Virus record (IMG/VR): IMGVR_UViG_3300006734_000053
Span: 1 to 20,143 of that record
DNA from: a virus
Length of the DNA stretch: 20,143 nt
Reading direction: 5' to 3' (one strand)
Positions 1,659 through 20,102 of this stretch are shown here, one piece after another (the first letter of the stretch is position 1; every line of letters starts with the position of its first letter). The notes beneath the pieces were generated by a model. That model saw only the letters and a list, made by a program, of their open reading frames with translations. It was not told the DNA's origin and searched no databases. The translations under genes were made by a program, and so were the position numbers.

Positions 1659-2959
1659 AAACGCAATTCCTGTGATTTGAAGCTGGCACGATCAATCGGC
1701 CATTCACGGTGGACCATGTAGCCAATCGCTGTGGTGATGTGCTGGCTTTCGTTCTTCTGGTCCTCTTGGAATGTGCTGCCCTTTTGAAGCTGCACCGTTG
1801 CCAAGCCCTTGTGGCACATCGGTGCCTTTGTCGTGTTCACGAACAAGCTGCGCTCACCCGCTGCGTTGCATATCTTCGCCCGAACAGCGTTCTGCCGGTC
1901 CTTGATCGCTGGTGCTGACCGCGCAACCTTGCGGCTAAACGTCCATCCTGCATCGCGTAGCACGGCCTCAATCTCGGTATAATCCGATGCGTGACCGTGC
2001 TTTTCGCCTGCGCGTCCAGCGGGGTCACCGTAAATCAGCACCCGTTTGTTCTTGTGGTCCTTGTAGCGCTCCACGAATTCAACCGCTGACTGCCGCGAAA
2101 CCGCGCTGATAAGCACAATCTCGTCCAGCAGAAGCAGGTTGCCATTGCGCACCACCCCGATAGCCGACGAAAGCGGCGTAAAGTTCTGGTCGTGCATCCA
2201 ATGAAGTTGCTCGTGAGGCTGGATTTCCTCGGTCGTGTGGTTCGCCGTGCTGTAATCCTCGTAGATACGCCCGGTCGCGGTTTCAAAGCTGGCTTCGAAC
2301 TCCTGCTGAAACTGCTTTTTGCTCATGACCCGCTTAGCCGATGCAATCACATCAGAAGGCAGAATCTCCGAAGACTTCCAATGATACGCCGCCCACTCAG
2401 GATCGCCCGATGTGGTCGCATACTGGTACATGTCGTAATAGTGGTTCAGGCCGTCAGGCACGCCGATCAGCCAGCACCACGCCCGATAGTCAGGGCGTAG
2501 AGGCGAAACCGTGTTTAGGGCGGGCAGAATGTTCGCCTGCCAAGCGTCCTCTTTCACGTCTGCAATTTCGTCAATCACGCCGCCGGTCCAAGGAATGCCC
2601 TCGATCCGCTGCGGCTTGTCTAGCCCGATCAGGTGGATCTCCGACCCGTTCGGCATGAATATCTTTAGGTCACTCTCGCTTGGCGCTTTGGCGTGGGATG
2701 CTGAGAAGGTCATTGCCTTCATATCATCCCAGAAGATCTTCTTGACCTGATCCCGCGTAGGGGCAGCGCAGAAATAAAGCTCGTTCGCGTTTTTCATCGC
2801 CTGTTTGGCAACGTACCGCTTTGCCCGCTCTGTCTTGCCCGACCGGCGACCCGCTGGCACAACCTTGAACCGGACCTGCTCGTCCTTGAGCCTGACCTGT
2901 TCGGGGATGTCGATAAGCGGATACCAGCGCCCGGCTTGCCGATCTAGCTGGATGCTCAC
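1655..2959 (-). CDS. terL: Terminase large subunit (packaging ATPase/nuclease)
   Basis: The motor that cuts phage DNA and pumps it into the prohead. The 434-residue protein has an N-terminal ATPase domain with a Walker A loop GRRSGKTE (residues 37-44) and a Walker B strand ending VIDE (128-131, Glu as catalytic base). The C-terminal half should be the RNase H-like nuclease; acidic candidates lie in the segments LIYGDPAG and HASDYTEIE. The start is GTG at 2959, overlapping the terS stop as GTGA; no ATG fits better. It is the second gene of a coupled terS-terL-portal-head unit transcribed leftward. Length and motifs look complete. Confidence 0.93.
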   Translation of the reverse strand: MSIQLDRQAGRWYPLIDIPEQVRLKDEQVRFKVVPAGRRSGKTERAKRYVAKQAMKNANELYFCAAPTRDQVKKIFWDDMKAMTFSASHAKAPSESDLKIFMPNGSEIHLIGLDKPQRIEGIPWTGGVIDEIADVKEDAWQANILPALNTVSPLRPDYRAWCWLIGVPDGLNHYYDMYQYATTSGDPEWAAYHWKSSEILPSDVIASAKRVMSKKQFQQEFEASFETATGRIYEDYSTANHTTEEIQPHEQLHWMHDQNFTPLSSAIGVVRNGNLLLLDEIVLISAVSRQSAVEFVERYKDHKNKRVLIYGDPAGRAGEKHGHASDYTEIEAVLRDAGWTFSRKVARSAPAIKDRQNAVRAKICNAAGERSLFVNTTKAPMCHKGLATVQLQKGSTFQEDQKNESQHITTAIGYMVHREWPIDRASFKSQELRL

Positions 2960-3330
2960 CCTGGCAGCTTGTCAGCGATTTTGTTCAGCGCGTCTGCCAC
3001 CTCGTCGCCCCCGCCGCCTTGCTGGTCGTGGAAGTGTTGCCGCAACTGGCCCAATGCCGAGACACGGGCAGAGTGGCTAGTGCCTTCCCCTTCGCGCTCG
3101 GCCTCAATAGCCAACCGCTGGATAACGTAATCCATTGTGATGTGAGTGCGCTCTGTACGGTCTGCCTGTGCTTTTGCAATCGCGGCAGCAATGTCGGGTT
3201 TTGTTAGGTTCTCGGCACCCGTCGAACGCGCCGTCTTCTCGCTGTAGCCCGCCGCAGTAGCTGCGCGGGTAGCGTTCCCGTCGATTAGGTATTCCGCAAC
3301 AAAGCGCTCCTGCTTAGCAGTTAGCGCCAT
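2956..3330 (-). CDS. terS: Terminase small subunit
   Basis: A 124-residue protein matching the Terminase_2 family: it opens MALTAKQERFVAEYLIDGNA, followed by TRAATAAGYSEKTARSTGAE, the typical N-terminal helix-turn-helix, then a long helical part that would form the oligomer ring. The small subunit recognises the packaging site on phage DNA and hands it to TerL. A purine-rich GGGAAG lies upstream of the ATG. It is followed by terL with a GTGA overlap and preceded by a long gene-free interval that holds three 11-bp-spaced direct repeats, a plausible recognition site. Confidence 0.92.
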   Translation of the reverse strand: MALTAKQERFVAEYLIDGNATRAATAAGYSEKTARSTGAENLTKPDIAAAIAKAQADRTERTHITMDYVIQRLAIEAEREGEGTSHSARVSALGQLRQHFHDQQGGGGDEVADALNKIADKLPG

Positions 3331-4089
3331 ATCTAGACTTCCCGTCTGTTGTGCTGAGGTGAAGGGCTTCCCGCCCGGTGGTGCGTATCGCCGCCGCGTT
3401 GTGTCTCATGTGCTGAGAAAATGTCGAGTAACCGTCGACTAGGCGTCGAGTAAGTGACGCGCCTTAGCATCCATGCTTAGAAGGGTGCCATCCATGTTAC
3501 GGGCCTTTAATCCCCGCTCGGGCAGTCCTACTGAAAGCCGCCGACACTCACCCCGCTTTATAGGCGCAGGGCTTGACCGCCACATGGGCTACCTATCCGG
3601 GGCCAGTTAAGTGCCTCAACCCGGAACTGAGCAGATGACCCGCGCATGTCCGAGGCCGGAGCCAAGTGCAGAGGCGCGTGTCGTATGTTGAGCGGCGGGA
3701 CTTGATACCCGCTTCACCCTTTCGGGCTACCGAGTGTGTTGCAACTCTGCCTTTCCGGCTTTCGCCGCGCTCTGAAAGCCTCGACACGGCCAGTCTAGCC
3801 GACGTATTCTCGCAATAGGCGCTGTTGCTCCACATGCGATAGACGAAGCCACCAGAAAGCGGCTGTGTTGAGCGCGTCCGCCATTCGTTGGACAAAGGCC
3901 CCTGCGGTCGGGGTGCTAGCACTGCCATGTTGCCGCGCTCATGTGGTGTGCAACCTATGTCGCCGTTTTGCTATGCGGGGACGGCCAAGCCCTCAGATCA
4001 TGCACACCACATCAAAGCGGCTTGAATCGAAAAATGCGCCCAGATAAATCAAGACGCACTTCGAGTTTCGACAAGGCACGCGAAACTTG
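3331..4089 (-). ncRNA. Candidate large structured RNA / highly structured terminase leader (gene-free interval)
   Basis: No convincing coding frame exists on either strand between terS and the GIY-YIG gene. The interval is dense in stems: a 12-bp perfect inverted repeat (3941-3952 with 4001-4012), a 7-bp helix directly next to it (3870-3876 with 3934-3940), a 7-bp helix (3677-3683 with 3782-3788) closing a five-way junction, and hairpins at 3596-3625, 3551-3571 and 3899-3913. Two hairpins have GAAA loops when read on the minus strand. The stems at 3551-3571 and 3604-3618 have G.U pairs on the minus strand where the plus strand would have C.A mismatches. A promoter-like pair just upstream (4124-4096) would start transcription near 4089. 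No U-tract terminator is visible, so the transcript may run on into terS. Large phage RNAs such as GOLLD or ROOL are possible relatives, but I recognise no family signature. Confidence 0.5.
3423..3453. repeat. Three direct repeats with exact 11-bp period upstream of terS
   Basis: GTCGAGTAA (3423), GTCGACTAG (3434) and GTCGAGTAA (3445) follow each other at a spacing of exactly 11 bp, about one helical turn, so all three would face the same side of the DNA. They lie about 90 bp upstream of the terS start. Small terminase proteins bind phased repeats near their own gene in several phages (pac or cosB sites), so this is a candidate TerS binding site. That role is inferred from position and spacing only. 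Confidence 0.5.
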
Positions 4090-4095
4090 CCTCTG

Positions 4096-4124
4096 ACGAT
4101 AGGGCATTTTAAGCCCTGCGTCAA
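4096..4124 (-). promoter_or_regulatory. Sigma-70-like promoter for the structured interval and terS
   Basis: On the minus strand TTGACG (4124-4119) and TATCGT (4101-4096) are separated by 17 bp, which predicts a start near 4089, right after the GIY-YIG gene ends. The spacer contains a small inverted repeat, AGGGC-N7-GCCCT (4101-4117), which could be an operator or a weak terminator stem for the gene upstream. It has no T-run. Confidence 0.45.
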
Positions 4125-4660
4125 CCACGATTTAGCGTAAATGGGTCTTCCCAATACGCACGATCAACAGCGTTGTGGGCCTTGTGCTTCACGTCCATTT
4201 GGTTGGTGCGCAGATAGGCGTATTCGTCGGCTGGCTGTTCTTCCATAGGGGCACCAGCTTCAAACACCGGATTGACCCCAAGAAACTCGGCAGCGCCCTG
4301 TATCGCGGCGGCTCCATATGCGGGGTTTGCAAGTGACCACTCGCCTTCACACGGGAACTGCCTGCGCATCCGCAGCAAGGCGCACCGCTCCACTACCTTC
4401 GCATCATCCGTTGAAAACTCGGCCCAATAGCCGATGTGCAGATCTCGGCCAACAACGTCCTGTAGCTTCCGCATCCTATTCTTTAGCTGGGTGGTGCGCC
4501 CTATCTTCAAAAGCGGCATGTCCTCCAGCACTACGCAATAAACGACAGAACGCTGCTCATCGCGCTCACGGGATTGCCGTGCCGCATTCGCCGCCCAAGG
4601 TGCGCCTGCGTCTCTGGATGGACGAACGCCGCTGTTTGGTGCTATCTCATTTTTAGCCAT
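4121..4660 (-). CDS. GIY-YIG superfamily protein (T5orf172/MUG113-like)
   Basis: A 179-residue protein with a small nuclease-like domain in the middle: VYCVV (residues 40-44) stands for the GIY part, KIGRT (52-56) for the YIG-like strand, followed by NRMRKLQ (61-67) with the expected Arg, and a Glu near residue 91 in VVERC. This spacing matches the T5orf172/MUG113 branch of the GIY-YIG superfamily. The ATG at 4660 has AAGGA six bases upstream; a GTG 15 bases earlier is less likely. The position next to the packaging region recalls free-standing nucleases near terminase genes in other phages, but its target is unknown. It has its own promoter-like sequence upstream, and the C-terminal 80 residues are unassigned. 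Confidence 0.7.
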   Translation of the reverse strand: MAKNEIAPNSGVRPSRDAGAPWAANAARQSRERDEQRSVVYCVVLEDMPLLKIGRTTQLKNRMRKLQDVVGRDLHIGYWAEFSTDDAKVVERCALLRMRRQFPCEGEWSLANPAYGAAAIQGAAEFLGVNPVFEAGAPMEEQPADEYAYLRTNQMDVKHKAHNAVDRAYWEDPFTLNRG

Positions 4661-4728
4661 TTCGAATCCTTTCACATTCGATTTCGGTCAGGGCTGGCGA
4701 GGTGTGCAACCACCTTACCGGCCTGTTT

Positions 4729-18883: not shown

Positions 18884-19092
18884 GCCAAGCACGACTAATG
18901 AAGATCCACGACGCAGCCACCTATCTTGGCATGAGCGTGACCAAGCTGAAATCCAAGGGCCTGCCCGTCCGGCGCGACGGCGGCAACGTCCTCTATGACC
19001 GCCTGGACCTTGACGACTACGCGGACAACCTGCCGTATGACGGTAAACAGCAATCGGAGGGCGTAGAGGAATGGCAAAAGGCGTTCGACTAA
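18880..19092 (+). CDS. xis: Excisionase-type helix-turn-helix protein
   Basis: 70 residues from ATG 18880 (ATGA overlap). It is a MerR-like winged helix: MKIHDAATYLGMSVTKLKSK, then GLPVRRDGGNVLYDRLDLDD, the pattern of excisionases and AlpA-type regulators. Its place directly before the integrase, which it overlaps by 22 bases, supports a role as recombination directionality factor. A regulator of the integrase is the alternative. Confidence 0.75.
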   Translation: MSQARLMKIHDAATYLGMSVTKLKSKGLPVRRDGGNVLYDRLDLDDYADNLPYDGKQQSEGVEEWQKAFD

Positions 19093-20102
19093 AAGGCATC
19101 AAGGTCGTCACGAAGCCCAACGGCAAGCGGTATGTTTACCGCCGCGTAAGGGGGCAATTCGTATCGCTGCCGGACCTGCCGGAGAACCACCCCGACTTTC
19201 TGCGGGCCTATGTCGATGCCGAGCATTACGCCCCGACAGACGGGACGCTTGCCAGCACGATCAAGCTATTCATTGCCTCGAATGACTTTAAACAGCGCAA
19301 GGAAAGCACCCGCAAGGTATGGAGGCGCAGGCTTGAGAAGATCGCAATGCAGTACGGCAGTTCGCCTATCGACAAGCTGACGACCGATCTAGTGAACAAG
19401 GCTATTCGCAAGGTATCCCCCGGCGCACAGCGGGGAGAGCGCACTATCTGGCGGGCTATCTTTGCCTTTGCGCAGTCCGAGTTCCTACGCAGTGACAACC
19501 CGGCCAAAGACGCCATGATAGGCAAGACAAAGGCCGTACCGCATGGCACATGGACGCCGGAGGACGTTGCCACCTTCCGCGCCCGCTGGCCTGTAGGGTC
19601 ACCAGAGCGCCAAGCCTTCGAGGTGATATACTGGACCGCTGCGCGATGCGTAGATGCGGCTGTGATAGGCTGGCAGCACGTTTCAGACGGGGTGCTGGAG
19701 TTCGTACAGGAGAAAACAGGGGGCACAGCCGTTGTGCCGATCACCGCGCCCGTCGCGTCGTATTTAGAGGCTGACCGCCGCTTGTTCCTGGAAGCCGCGT
19801 CACCTGATCTGCTTTTCATCCTCACGACCACGGGAAAGGGCCGATCTGTCAAAGCCCTAAGTCAGTTCGTAAGCCGCGCCGCCCGTGATGCTGGACTAGA
19901 GAGCCGGACAGCTCACGGCCTGCGCCGCGCACGCGCCGTAATCCTCGCTGAAAACGGGTGGACGCCTCACCAAATCGGTGCATGGACGGGGCATGAATCC
20001 TTGGCCGAGGTCAGCCATTACACCCGCGATGCGAACAAAAGGAGCATGGTTGTTGGCAACCACGTTGGAAACTCCGGCAATGTGAAGCGGTTTCCGTCAT
20101 AA
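19071..20102 (+). CDS. int: Tyrosine recombinase (phage integrase)
   Basis: 343 residues that join phage and host DNA at the attachment site. The C-terminal catalytic domain shows the full set: R192 (TAARCVDAAV), K215 (QEKTGG), H282 and R285 (HGLRR), H308 (TGHES) and the nucleophile Y317 (HYTRDA). Before it are an N-terminal arm part (about 1-60) and a core-binding helical domain (about 60-160: STIKLFIASNDFKQRKESTR). GGAGG precedes the ATG. Int is last in the rightward operon and ends 24 bases before a probable attachment site. Confidence 0.93.
   Translation: MAKGVRLKGIKVVTKPNGKRYVYRRVRGQFVSLPDLPENHPDFLRAYVDAEHYAPTDGTLASTIKLFIASNDFKQRKESTRKVWRRRLEKIAMQYGSSPIDKLTTDLVNKAIRKVSPGAQRGERTIWRAIFAFAQSEFLRSDNPAKDAMIGKTKAVPHGTWTPEDVATFRARWPVGSPERQAFEVIYWTAARCVDAAVIGWQHVSDGVLEFVQEKTGGTAVVPITAPVASYLEADRRLFLEAASPDLLFILTTTGKGRSVKALSQFVSRAARDAGLESRTAHGLRRARAVILAENGWTPHQIGAWTGHESLAEVSHYTRDANKRSMVVGNHVGNSGNVKRFPS

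Follow-up and report, generated by a model that had tools for sequence, protein, structure and literature searches.

GOLLD and ROOL are described, in the passages of PMC12286853 that deal with them, as structured RNAs of phages and prophages that often lie near transfer RNA (tRNA) islands. YrlA, a bacterial Y RNA, is a Ro60-tethered tRNA mimic that part of PMC7765460 describes from phages too. Mycobacteriophage DS6A has a tag-less transfer-messenger RNA (tmRNA), a small phage tRNA-like RNA treated in sections of PMC4131195 and PMC11915505, and a molecule similar to it inhibits host tmRNA, perhaps by titrating SmpB, according to the relevant section of PMC4131195. In addition, a portion of PMC9004378 reports a two-piece tmRNA gene of a marine phage with a predicted glutamine riboswitch. 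Here we describe a five-way-junction RNA on the minus strand of a 20,143-base virus record (IMG/VR record IMGVR_UViG_3300006734_000053; the whole stretch is called the window below) and the family of 34 distinct members to which it belongs. An earlier note, made from the letters of the window alone, had proposed this junction, and all of its helices and its two GAAA tetraloops, in P2 and P4, are present at the positions listed in Table 1.

The structure is carried by covariation. Across the 34 members, 92.8% of 834 cells are paired and 20 of the 25 pairs change on both sides, with a score of 0.759 compared with 0.175 in shuffles (0/500 as high); when the partner is shifted by 1-3 columns, pairing falls to 33-45%. 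A set of 23 members gave 95.7% of 556 cells paired, both-side changes in 20 of 25 pairs and a score of 0.784 compared with 0.187 (0/500). The 16 of these 23 that lie outside the search model R1 gave 94.0% paired, 19/25 and 0.776 compared with 0.179 (0/500), the number of both-side-changed pairs alone being less telling in this subset (53/500 shuffles). The earlier note had asked whether paired bases change in relatives with no compensation; instead, the covariation strongly favours the structure. The conserved RNA structure and the family are secure, and we hold them to be very nearly certain.

The element is about 85-130 nucleotides (nt) long and runs in the order P1, P2 (no linker), J2/3, P3, J3/4, P4, J4/5, P5 (five pairs) and P1 again (no linker), with 4-14 contiguous pairs in P1 across members. 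The joining segments J2/3, J3/4 and J4/5 carry GAAANGC (then usually A), GGUAR and YGAA, respectively, in 34/34 members, a constancy that is partly built in because the pattern searches required parts of these motifs. The segments of the window, GAAAGGC, GGUAG and UGAA, all fit. The G-C pairs that close P5 beside P1 and beside the loop are also invariant (34/34). The P5 loop itself is GAUCAGGU in 20 members and UUCAAGU, the standard 7-base tRNA T-loop, in 13, and the window alone has the intermediate form UAUCAAGU; thus the proposal that this loop resembles a T loop with one base added gains support from relatives with a T-arm. A five-pair T-arm with a UUCRANU loop that abuts the closing stem is found in 13/34 members, and a variant loop in 21/34 including the window. 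The loop type goes together with the fifth base of J2/3: all 20 members with GAUCAGGU have G there, 12 of the 13 with UUCAAGU have U or C, and L071 and the window have G. This correlation, to which kinship could contribute, suggests a tertiary contact between the two loops. The P2 and P4 loops are mostly GNRA with some UUCG, pointing to RNA rather than folded DNA. An attC-like folded-DNA recombination site was considered and rejected, as both these loops and the shared strand with all tRNAs speak against it.

Many invariant unpaired bases in so small an RNA usually indicate a precise three-dimensional job, that is, protein or ligand binding or catalysis. The dense conservation of the joining segments in all members could reflect a ligand-binding, riboswitch-like RNA in which these segments fold into a pocket and so control the RNA or gene next to them, and the glutamine riboswitch predicted in part of PMC9004378, as well as several stand-alone copies that precede packaging genes in the same orientation, are in line with this. 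However, the tRNA arrays offer no obvious regulated gene, the copy in L050 is opposite in strand to the terminase and portal genes, the Rfam riboswitches do not match, and no shared expression platform was seen, though no systematic search for one was made; we consider a riboswitch unlikely. The compact size, the invariant unpaired core and the location at processing sites could belong to a ribozyme that cuts itself or its neighbour, but an ordinary stem that covaries closes off both ends and no Rfam ribozyme family matches, which leaves this explanation improbable.

The family was collected by sequence and pattern searches. A blastn search with the window gap that holds the RNA matched 13 records from the KVP40 group of Vibrio phages over 51 bases at 80% identity, and the KVP40 copy, which is unannotated, lies between two tRNA genes and is framed by a nine-pair stem and a T-arm loop UUCAAGU. 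Pattern scans of IMG/VR together with blastn gave copies in the tRNA arrays of L031 and of roseophage DSS3_MAL1 (MAL1), and a copy in L030 that sits within a gene called a permuted tmRNA by ARAGORN. Members made up 24 of 31 pattern matches in one scan, 20 of 23 (one new, L071) in another, 14 of 22 (13 new, upheld on a further check) in a third and 20 of 42 (none new) in a fourth, with 7/31, 3/23, 8/22 and 22/42 matches outside the family. A scan of GTDB contigs, in which the bacterial genome contigs were searched with the GAUCAGGU-type pattern only, gave one member among five matches (L064, Jannaschia) and 4/5 outside the family. The 42 loci with the element comprise 38 viral contigs, KVP40, DSS3_MAL1, one Jannaschia contig and the window. 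Eight duplicates (L040, L043, L044, L048, L053, L060, L094 and L095) were dropped to give the 34 distinct members, among which the near-identical L046 and L061 are both retained; L032 (KVP40 again) and 12 other records of the KVP40 group are uncounted. A MAFFT alignment of mixed members misaligned P1 and P2 and was excluded from the counts.

Seven gap-free copies, taken from tRNA arrays and tmRNA genes and none of them from the window, went into model R1. When this model was run over 63 sources (496,073 bases), the window ranked third best outside the seven building copies (score in Table 1). Model R2, which includes the window, finds a single significant place across the whole window, the next reaching 9.7 bits. 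Searches of whole records found one copy each in 16/20 records; the remaining four are comparisons chosen without a known copy, namely three small-terminase relatives and one Sulfitobacter phage. The bacterial genomes that were searched almost entirely lack the family: with strict filters, the model search found 1/394 genomes of one family and 1/385 of its class, both being the known Jannaschia genome. Plasmids and E. coli genomes, each searched with one member as query, gave no match. Two blastn leads among isolate phages, Curtobacterium phage Parvaparticeps (19.6 bits) and Pectobacterium phage Bobbio (15.6 bits), matched the model weakly and were rejected as members, and Sulfitobacter phage phiCB2047-B and Acinetobacter phage CP14 gave no match in the same search. 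The elements of the two leads (L124:930-1029 and L125:946-1025) have a T-arm upon a stem of 7 or 10 pairs and a different interior, and are perhaps other odd tRNA-like RNAs.

The earlier note expected relatives in related prophages. Most of them instead sit in unrelated phages, where tRNA arrays and permuted tmRNA genes house them. Phage tRNA arrays, including those of Vibrio phage KVP40 and roseophage DSS3_MAL1, hold 13 of the 34 members; all 13 share the strand of the tRNAs, and 11/13 have a tRNA no more than 14 nt away. In three array copies (3/34 overall), NCCA follows P1 directly (P about 0.001 under equal base frequencies), and two of these three have a 7-pair P1. In L071 (8135-8209) and L085 (1828-1902), a tRNA with the anticodon CUA (tRNA-Pyl in ARAGORN), probably an amber suppressor, stands directly before the element. 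Directly upstream of the DSS3_MAL1 element (L033, about 2796-2985) are two unannotated tRNA-Ser-like genes with the anticodons CGA and TGA, as read by eye, and unusual T-loops AUCRAGA. KVP40 has three 'pseudo-tRNAs' of 113-124 nt (L028:217-329, 340-463 and 2014-2129), which are tRNA-like with insertions of ~40-50 nt in the anticodon arm; these are possibly small introns, and two of the three have the motif ACTGACAAG in common.

Eight further members occupy the intervening segment of a permuted tmRNA gene, seven called by ARAGORN and the eighth (L045) by Rfam. Aligned to the Rfam tmRNA models, the element forms an insert in six loci, L030, L036, L040 (a duplicate of L036), L045, L049 and L056. 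One alternative is a cis processing signal, in which the T-arm stacked on the closing stem would direct a tRNA enzyme such as RNase P to cleave beside it and so free the end of the neighbouring tRNA or of the tmRNA halves. The closeness of 11/13 array copies to a tRNA and the eight copies filling the segment removed from the precursor tmRNA would fit, whereas 13/34 copies including the window have no nearby tRNA in the examined locus, the variable length of P1 gives no fixed measuring distance, and most tRNAs in the same arrays are without the element. We regard a cis signal as rather unlikely.

Other phages fill the same segment differently. In five loci from isolate roseophages or Rhodobacter phages (L132-L136), the permuted tmRNA has, after the CCACCA, an intervening segment of about 90-105 nt at ~529-629, with a long closing stem and an interior unlike the family; GAAGAGGC is common to those of L132, L133 and L134. 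The family is not found at a significant score in these five tmRNA loci (best 11.5 bits). The segment of L135 has a T-arm-like hairpin on its stem (11.1 bits with model R2) and is perhaps a distant relative. Upstream of the permuted tmRNA, L133 (1-278), L134 (1-278) and L135 (1-305) match GOLLD with 67.9 to 118 bits, matches that end at the locus edge and score below the gathering value of 150. Taken together, the marine phage tmRNA with its predicted riboswitch and these other stem-closed interiors suggest that the segment may be a general berth for extra RNAs.

The remaining 13 members, the window included, have no tRNA or tmRNA in the examined locus. Terminase, portal or capsid genes start 0.2-3.3 kilobases downstream on the same strand in the window, L044 (a copy of L039), L061 (together with the near-identical L046), L062, L095 (a copy of L093), L083 and L098. 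The copy in L050 lies between terminase and portal on the opposite strand, that in L057 touches the edge of an opposite-strand endolysin gene, and L041, L054 and L064 also belong to this group. The same-strand copies could mark a packaging-linked RNA or DNA site, but 21/34 copies are in tRNA arrays or tmRNA genes, and the closest relative of the window, L002, has the same gene order and no RNA. A terminase-linked function ranks low because the 26 loci fetched by small-terminase similarity hold no copy detectable with model R1, and we judge it very improbable.

While the RNA class is secure, its function is inferred. The reading that we favour, tentatively, is a small and stable phage-encoded tRNA mimic without an anticodon arm, which tRNA-processing enzymes would set free and which would act in trans on some factor that handles tRNA. 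A tRNA-like elbow is suggested by the GGUA segment, whose GG may be D-loop-like by analogy with tRNA, and by the T-arm, which stacks on the closing stem. The placement in precursors that are cut by tRNA enzymes and the NCCA of three array copies suggest release by these enzymes. The intervening piece of a permuted tmRNA is discarded in the textbook case, and the RNA fills exactly this piece, so that tmRNA excision would free it. The stand-alone copies, some of which are opposite in strand to their neighbours, argue for action in trans, and small tRNA-like RNAs from phages that inhibit a host translation system have a precedent in the tag-less tmRNA of DS6A. In the proposed mechanism, host tRNA-processing enzymes would cut the RNA out of tRNA or tmRNA precursor transcripts, and in phages without tRNAs, such as that of the window, it would be made from its own transcript. 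The closing stem would seal its ends, and the T-loop and invariant GGUA segment would pack into the elbow. During infection, the RNA would then occupy a factor, of the host or of the phage, by which tRNA is recognised through its acceptor/T-arm half. Candidates include modification enzymes, proteins that bind tRNA or tmRNA, and RNase P; a protein that grips this half is the most likely partner.

Small nucleolar RNAs are nested in introns, and the family may have a similar lodging. It is possible, and we put it forward with more reserve, that the element represents a new tRNA-mimicking class of regulatory or catalytic RNA, passed among unrelated phages and nested in the removable tmRNA segment or in tRNA arrays, which captures a host translation or RNA-processing factor while the phage infects. 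With copies in three settings (tRNA arrays, tmRNA segments and stand-alone), the reason for the presence of tRNA islands in large phages becomes directly testable, and a compact, highly conserved RNA has been present unannotated in the long-studied phage KVP40.

Several points weigh against this account of structure and function. P1 has 4-14 pairs rather than the seven of tRNA, and a CCA end follows in only 3/34 members, so tRNA enzymes may not treat the RNA as a tRNA. Having been made to fit the model structure, the alignments are biased toward it; this is a minor worry because the effect is large and members were found by loop and joining-segment patterns, not by pairing. Folding energy lends limited help. 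The earlier note had proposed folding both strands against shuffled sequences, and positions 3670-3795 on the minus strand do fold better than dinucleotide shuffles (-49.5 versus -41.2, sd 3.7), but the margin is modest (z -2.24; 6/200 as good) and the junction is not the minimum-energy fold; the plus strand gave z -1.65 with 14/200 as good. For this single sequence, the five-way fold has -38.1 kcal/mol versus the minimum of -49.5 kcal/mol and is thus 11.4 kcal/mol less stable. In the minimum-energy fold of the window, the outer helix persists, as does the last hairpin, but the middle is rearranged, and the mean pair probabilities are 0.99 for the outer helix, 0.38 for P1, 0.52 for P2, 0.41 for P3, 0.59 for P4 and 0.83 for P5. 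The junction in the window is therefore unproven by energy alone, and the comparative evidence from covariation is decisive.

Table 1 Parts of the five-way-junction RNA and surrounding genes in the window
Feature	Position	Strand	Remark
Five-way-junction RNA, family core P1 to P1	3690-3772	minus	73.1 bits (E 4.8e-15) in cmsearch with R1, a model that excludes the window
P1 5' strand GAGCG	3768-3772	minus	pairs with 3690-3694; covaries in the family
P2 hairpin CGGC-GAAA-GCCG	3756-3767	minus	abuts P1, no linker
J2/3 joining segment GAAAGGCA	3748-3755	minus	GAAANGC in 34/34; GAAAGGC in the window
P3 hairpin GAGU-UGCAACAC-ACUC	3732-3747	minus	
J3/4 joining segment GGUAG	3727-3731	minus	GGUAR in 34/34
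P4 hairpin CCC-GAAA-GGG	3717-3726	minus	family loops mostly GNRA or UUCG
J4/5 joining segment UGAA	3713-3716	minus	YGAA in 34/34
P5 T-arm-like hairpin GCGGG-UAUCAAGU-CCCGC	3695-3712	minus	8-base loop; abuts P1, no linker
P1 3' strand CGCUC	3690-3694	minus	
Outer helix, 5' strand	3782-3788	minus	pairs with 3677-3683
Outer helix, 3' strand	3677-3683	minus	
Outer-helix extension GGC/GCC	3789-3791 with 3673-3675	minus	past a one-base bulge
T5orf172 (GIY-YIG) gene	4121-4675	minus	
Gap without family-assigned gene, holds the RNA	3331-4120	minus	790 nt, between the GIY-YIG gene and the small terminase gene
Small terminase gene	2956-3330	minus	
Large terminase gene	1655-2959	minus	
Gene with DUF4055 domain	264-1658	minus	reads as portal from its position
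Integrase gene	19071-20102		

The outer helix was observed in the window only, and the conserved closing stem of the family is P1. A 111-amino-acid reading frame on the minus strand (3593-3928) overlaps the RNA. A coding origin of this segment was set aside, the family libraries not having been searched with the frame, because the members align structurally, with compensatory changes and length variation in the hairpin loops, unlike a conserved protein. The nearest relative of the window phage is L002 (large terminase 91% and portal 81% identical), in which a T5orf172-like gene, so named from a reading of its sequence, a gap and the small terminase gene follow in the order seen in the window. 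No copy of the RNA was found in L002, even in a search without filters, and the RNA is therefore accessory and appears to travel between phages. Elsewhere in the gap, 49 bases (3380-3428) are 98% identical to Sulfitobacter phages pCB2047-A, pCB2047-C and NYA-2014a, the counterpart in pCB2047-A lying upstream of its packaging genes, and next to these bases, positions 3340-3379 are conserved ahead of the small terminase gene in L002, L004, L007 and L015. A packaging (cos or pac) site is a candidate reading.

The comparison with described RNAs sets the family apart. In the window, ARAGORN found no tRNA or tmRNA gene (0) and no Rfam family reached its gathering score, in agreement with the earlier description of the RNA as cloverleaf-like but not a tRNA. 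The 790-nt gap gave just three weak matches to eukaryotic or animal-virus families in Rfam (E 2.3 to 5), no tRNA model matched the element in L028 (KVP40) or L033 (MAL1) at E up to 2, and the element has no match in Rfam 15, where riboswitch and ribozyme families are included. A full-text literature search, with subscription journals mostly outside its scope, found no description of the element. The family is undescribed and absent from Rfam 15.

YrlA (RF02553), a non-translating tRNA mimic of bacteria and phages, has a tRNA-like module in common with the element, but its model does not match the element in the window gap at E up to 5 or in KVP40 and MAL1 (L028 and L033) at E up to 2, and no TROVE (Ro60) gene was found in five records, some of them fragments (KVP40, MAL1 and three viral records). 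A Y RNA identity was rejected on these grounds and is, of all the explanations, the least probable, being largely refuted. With GOLLD and ROOL, the element shares its residence in phage tRNA islands; those RNAs are much larger and have another structure, and no GOLLD or ROOL match overlaps the element. The DS6A tag-less tmRNA offers an analogy of action only, since the sequence and helices of the element differ. The permuted two-piece tmRNA (RF01849 and RF04321), whose models find no match in the window, has eight copies inside its genes, and the element is wholly an insert in the intervening segment where aligned. The remaining comparison is with tRNA (RF00005). Like tRNA, the element has a T-arm-like hairpin of five pairs, with the loop UUCAAGU in 13/34 members, stacked without a linker on an acceptor-like stem; its GGUA segment may resemble the D-loop, it is located among tRNA genes, and an NCCA end is present in 3/34. 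Unlike tRNA, it has five helices rather than four, a closing stem of variable length instead of a 7-pair acceptor stem with a regular CCA end, P3 and P4 of varying length and loop in place of an anticodon arm with a 7-base loop, and the invariant GAAANGC and YGAA segments of its own.
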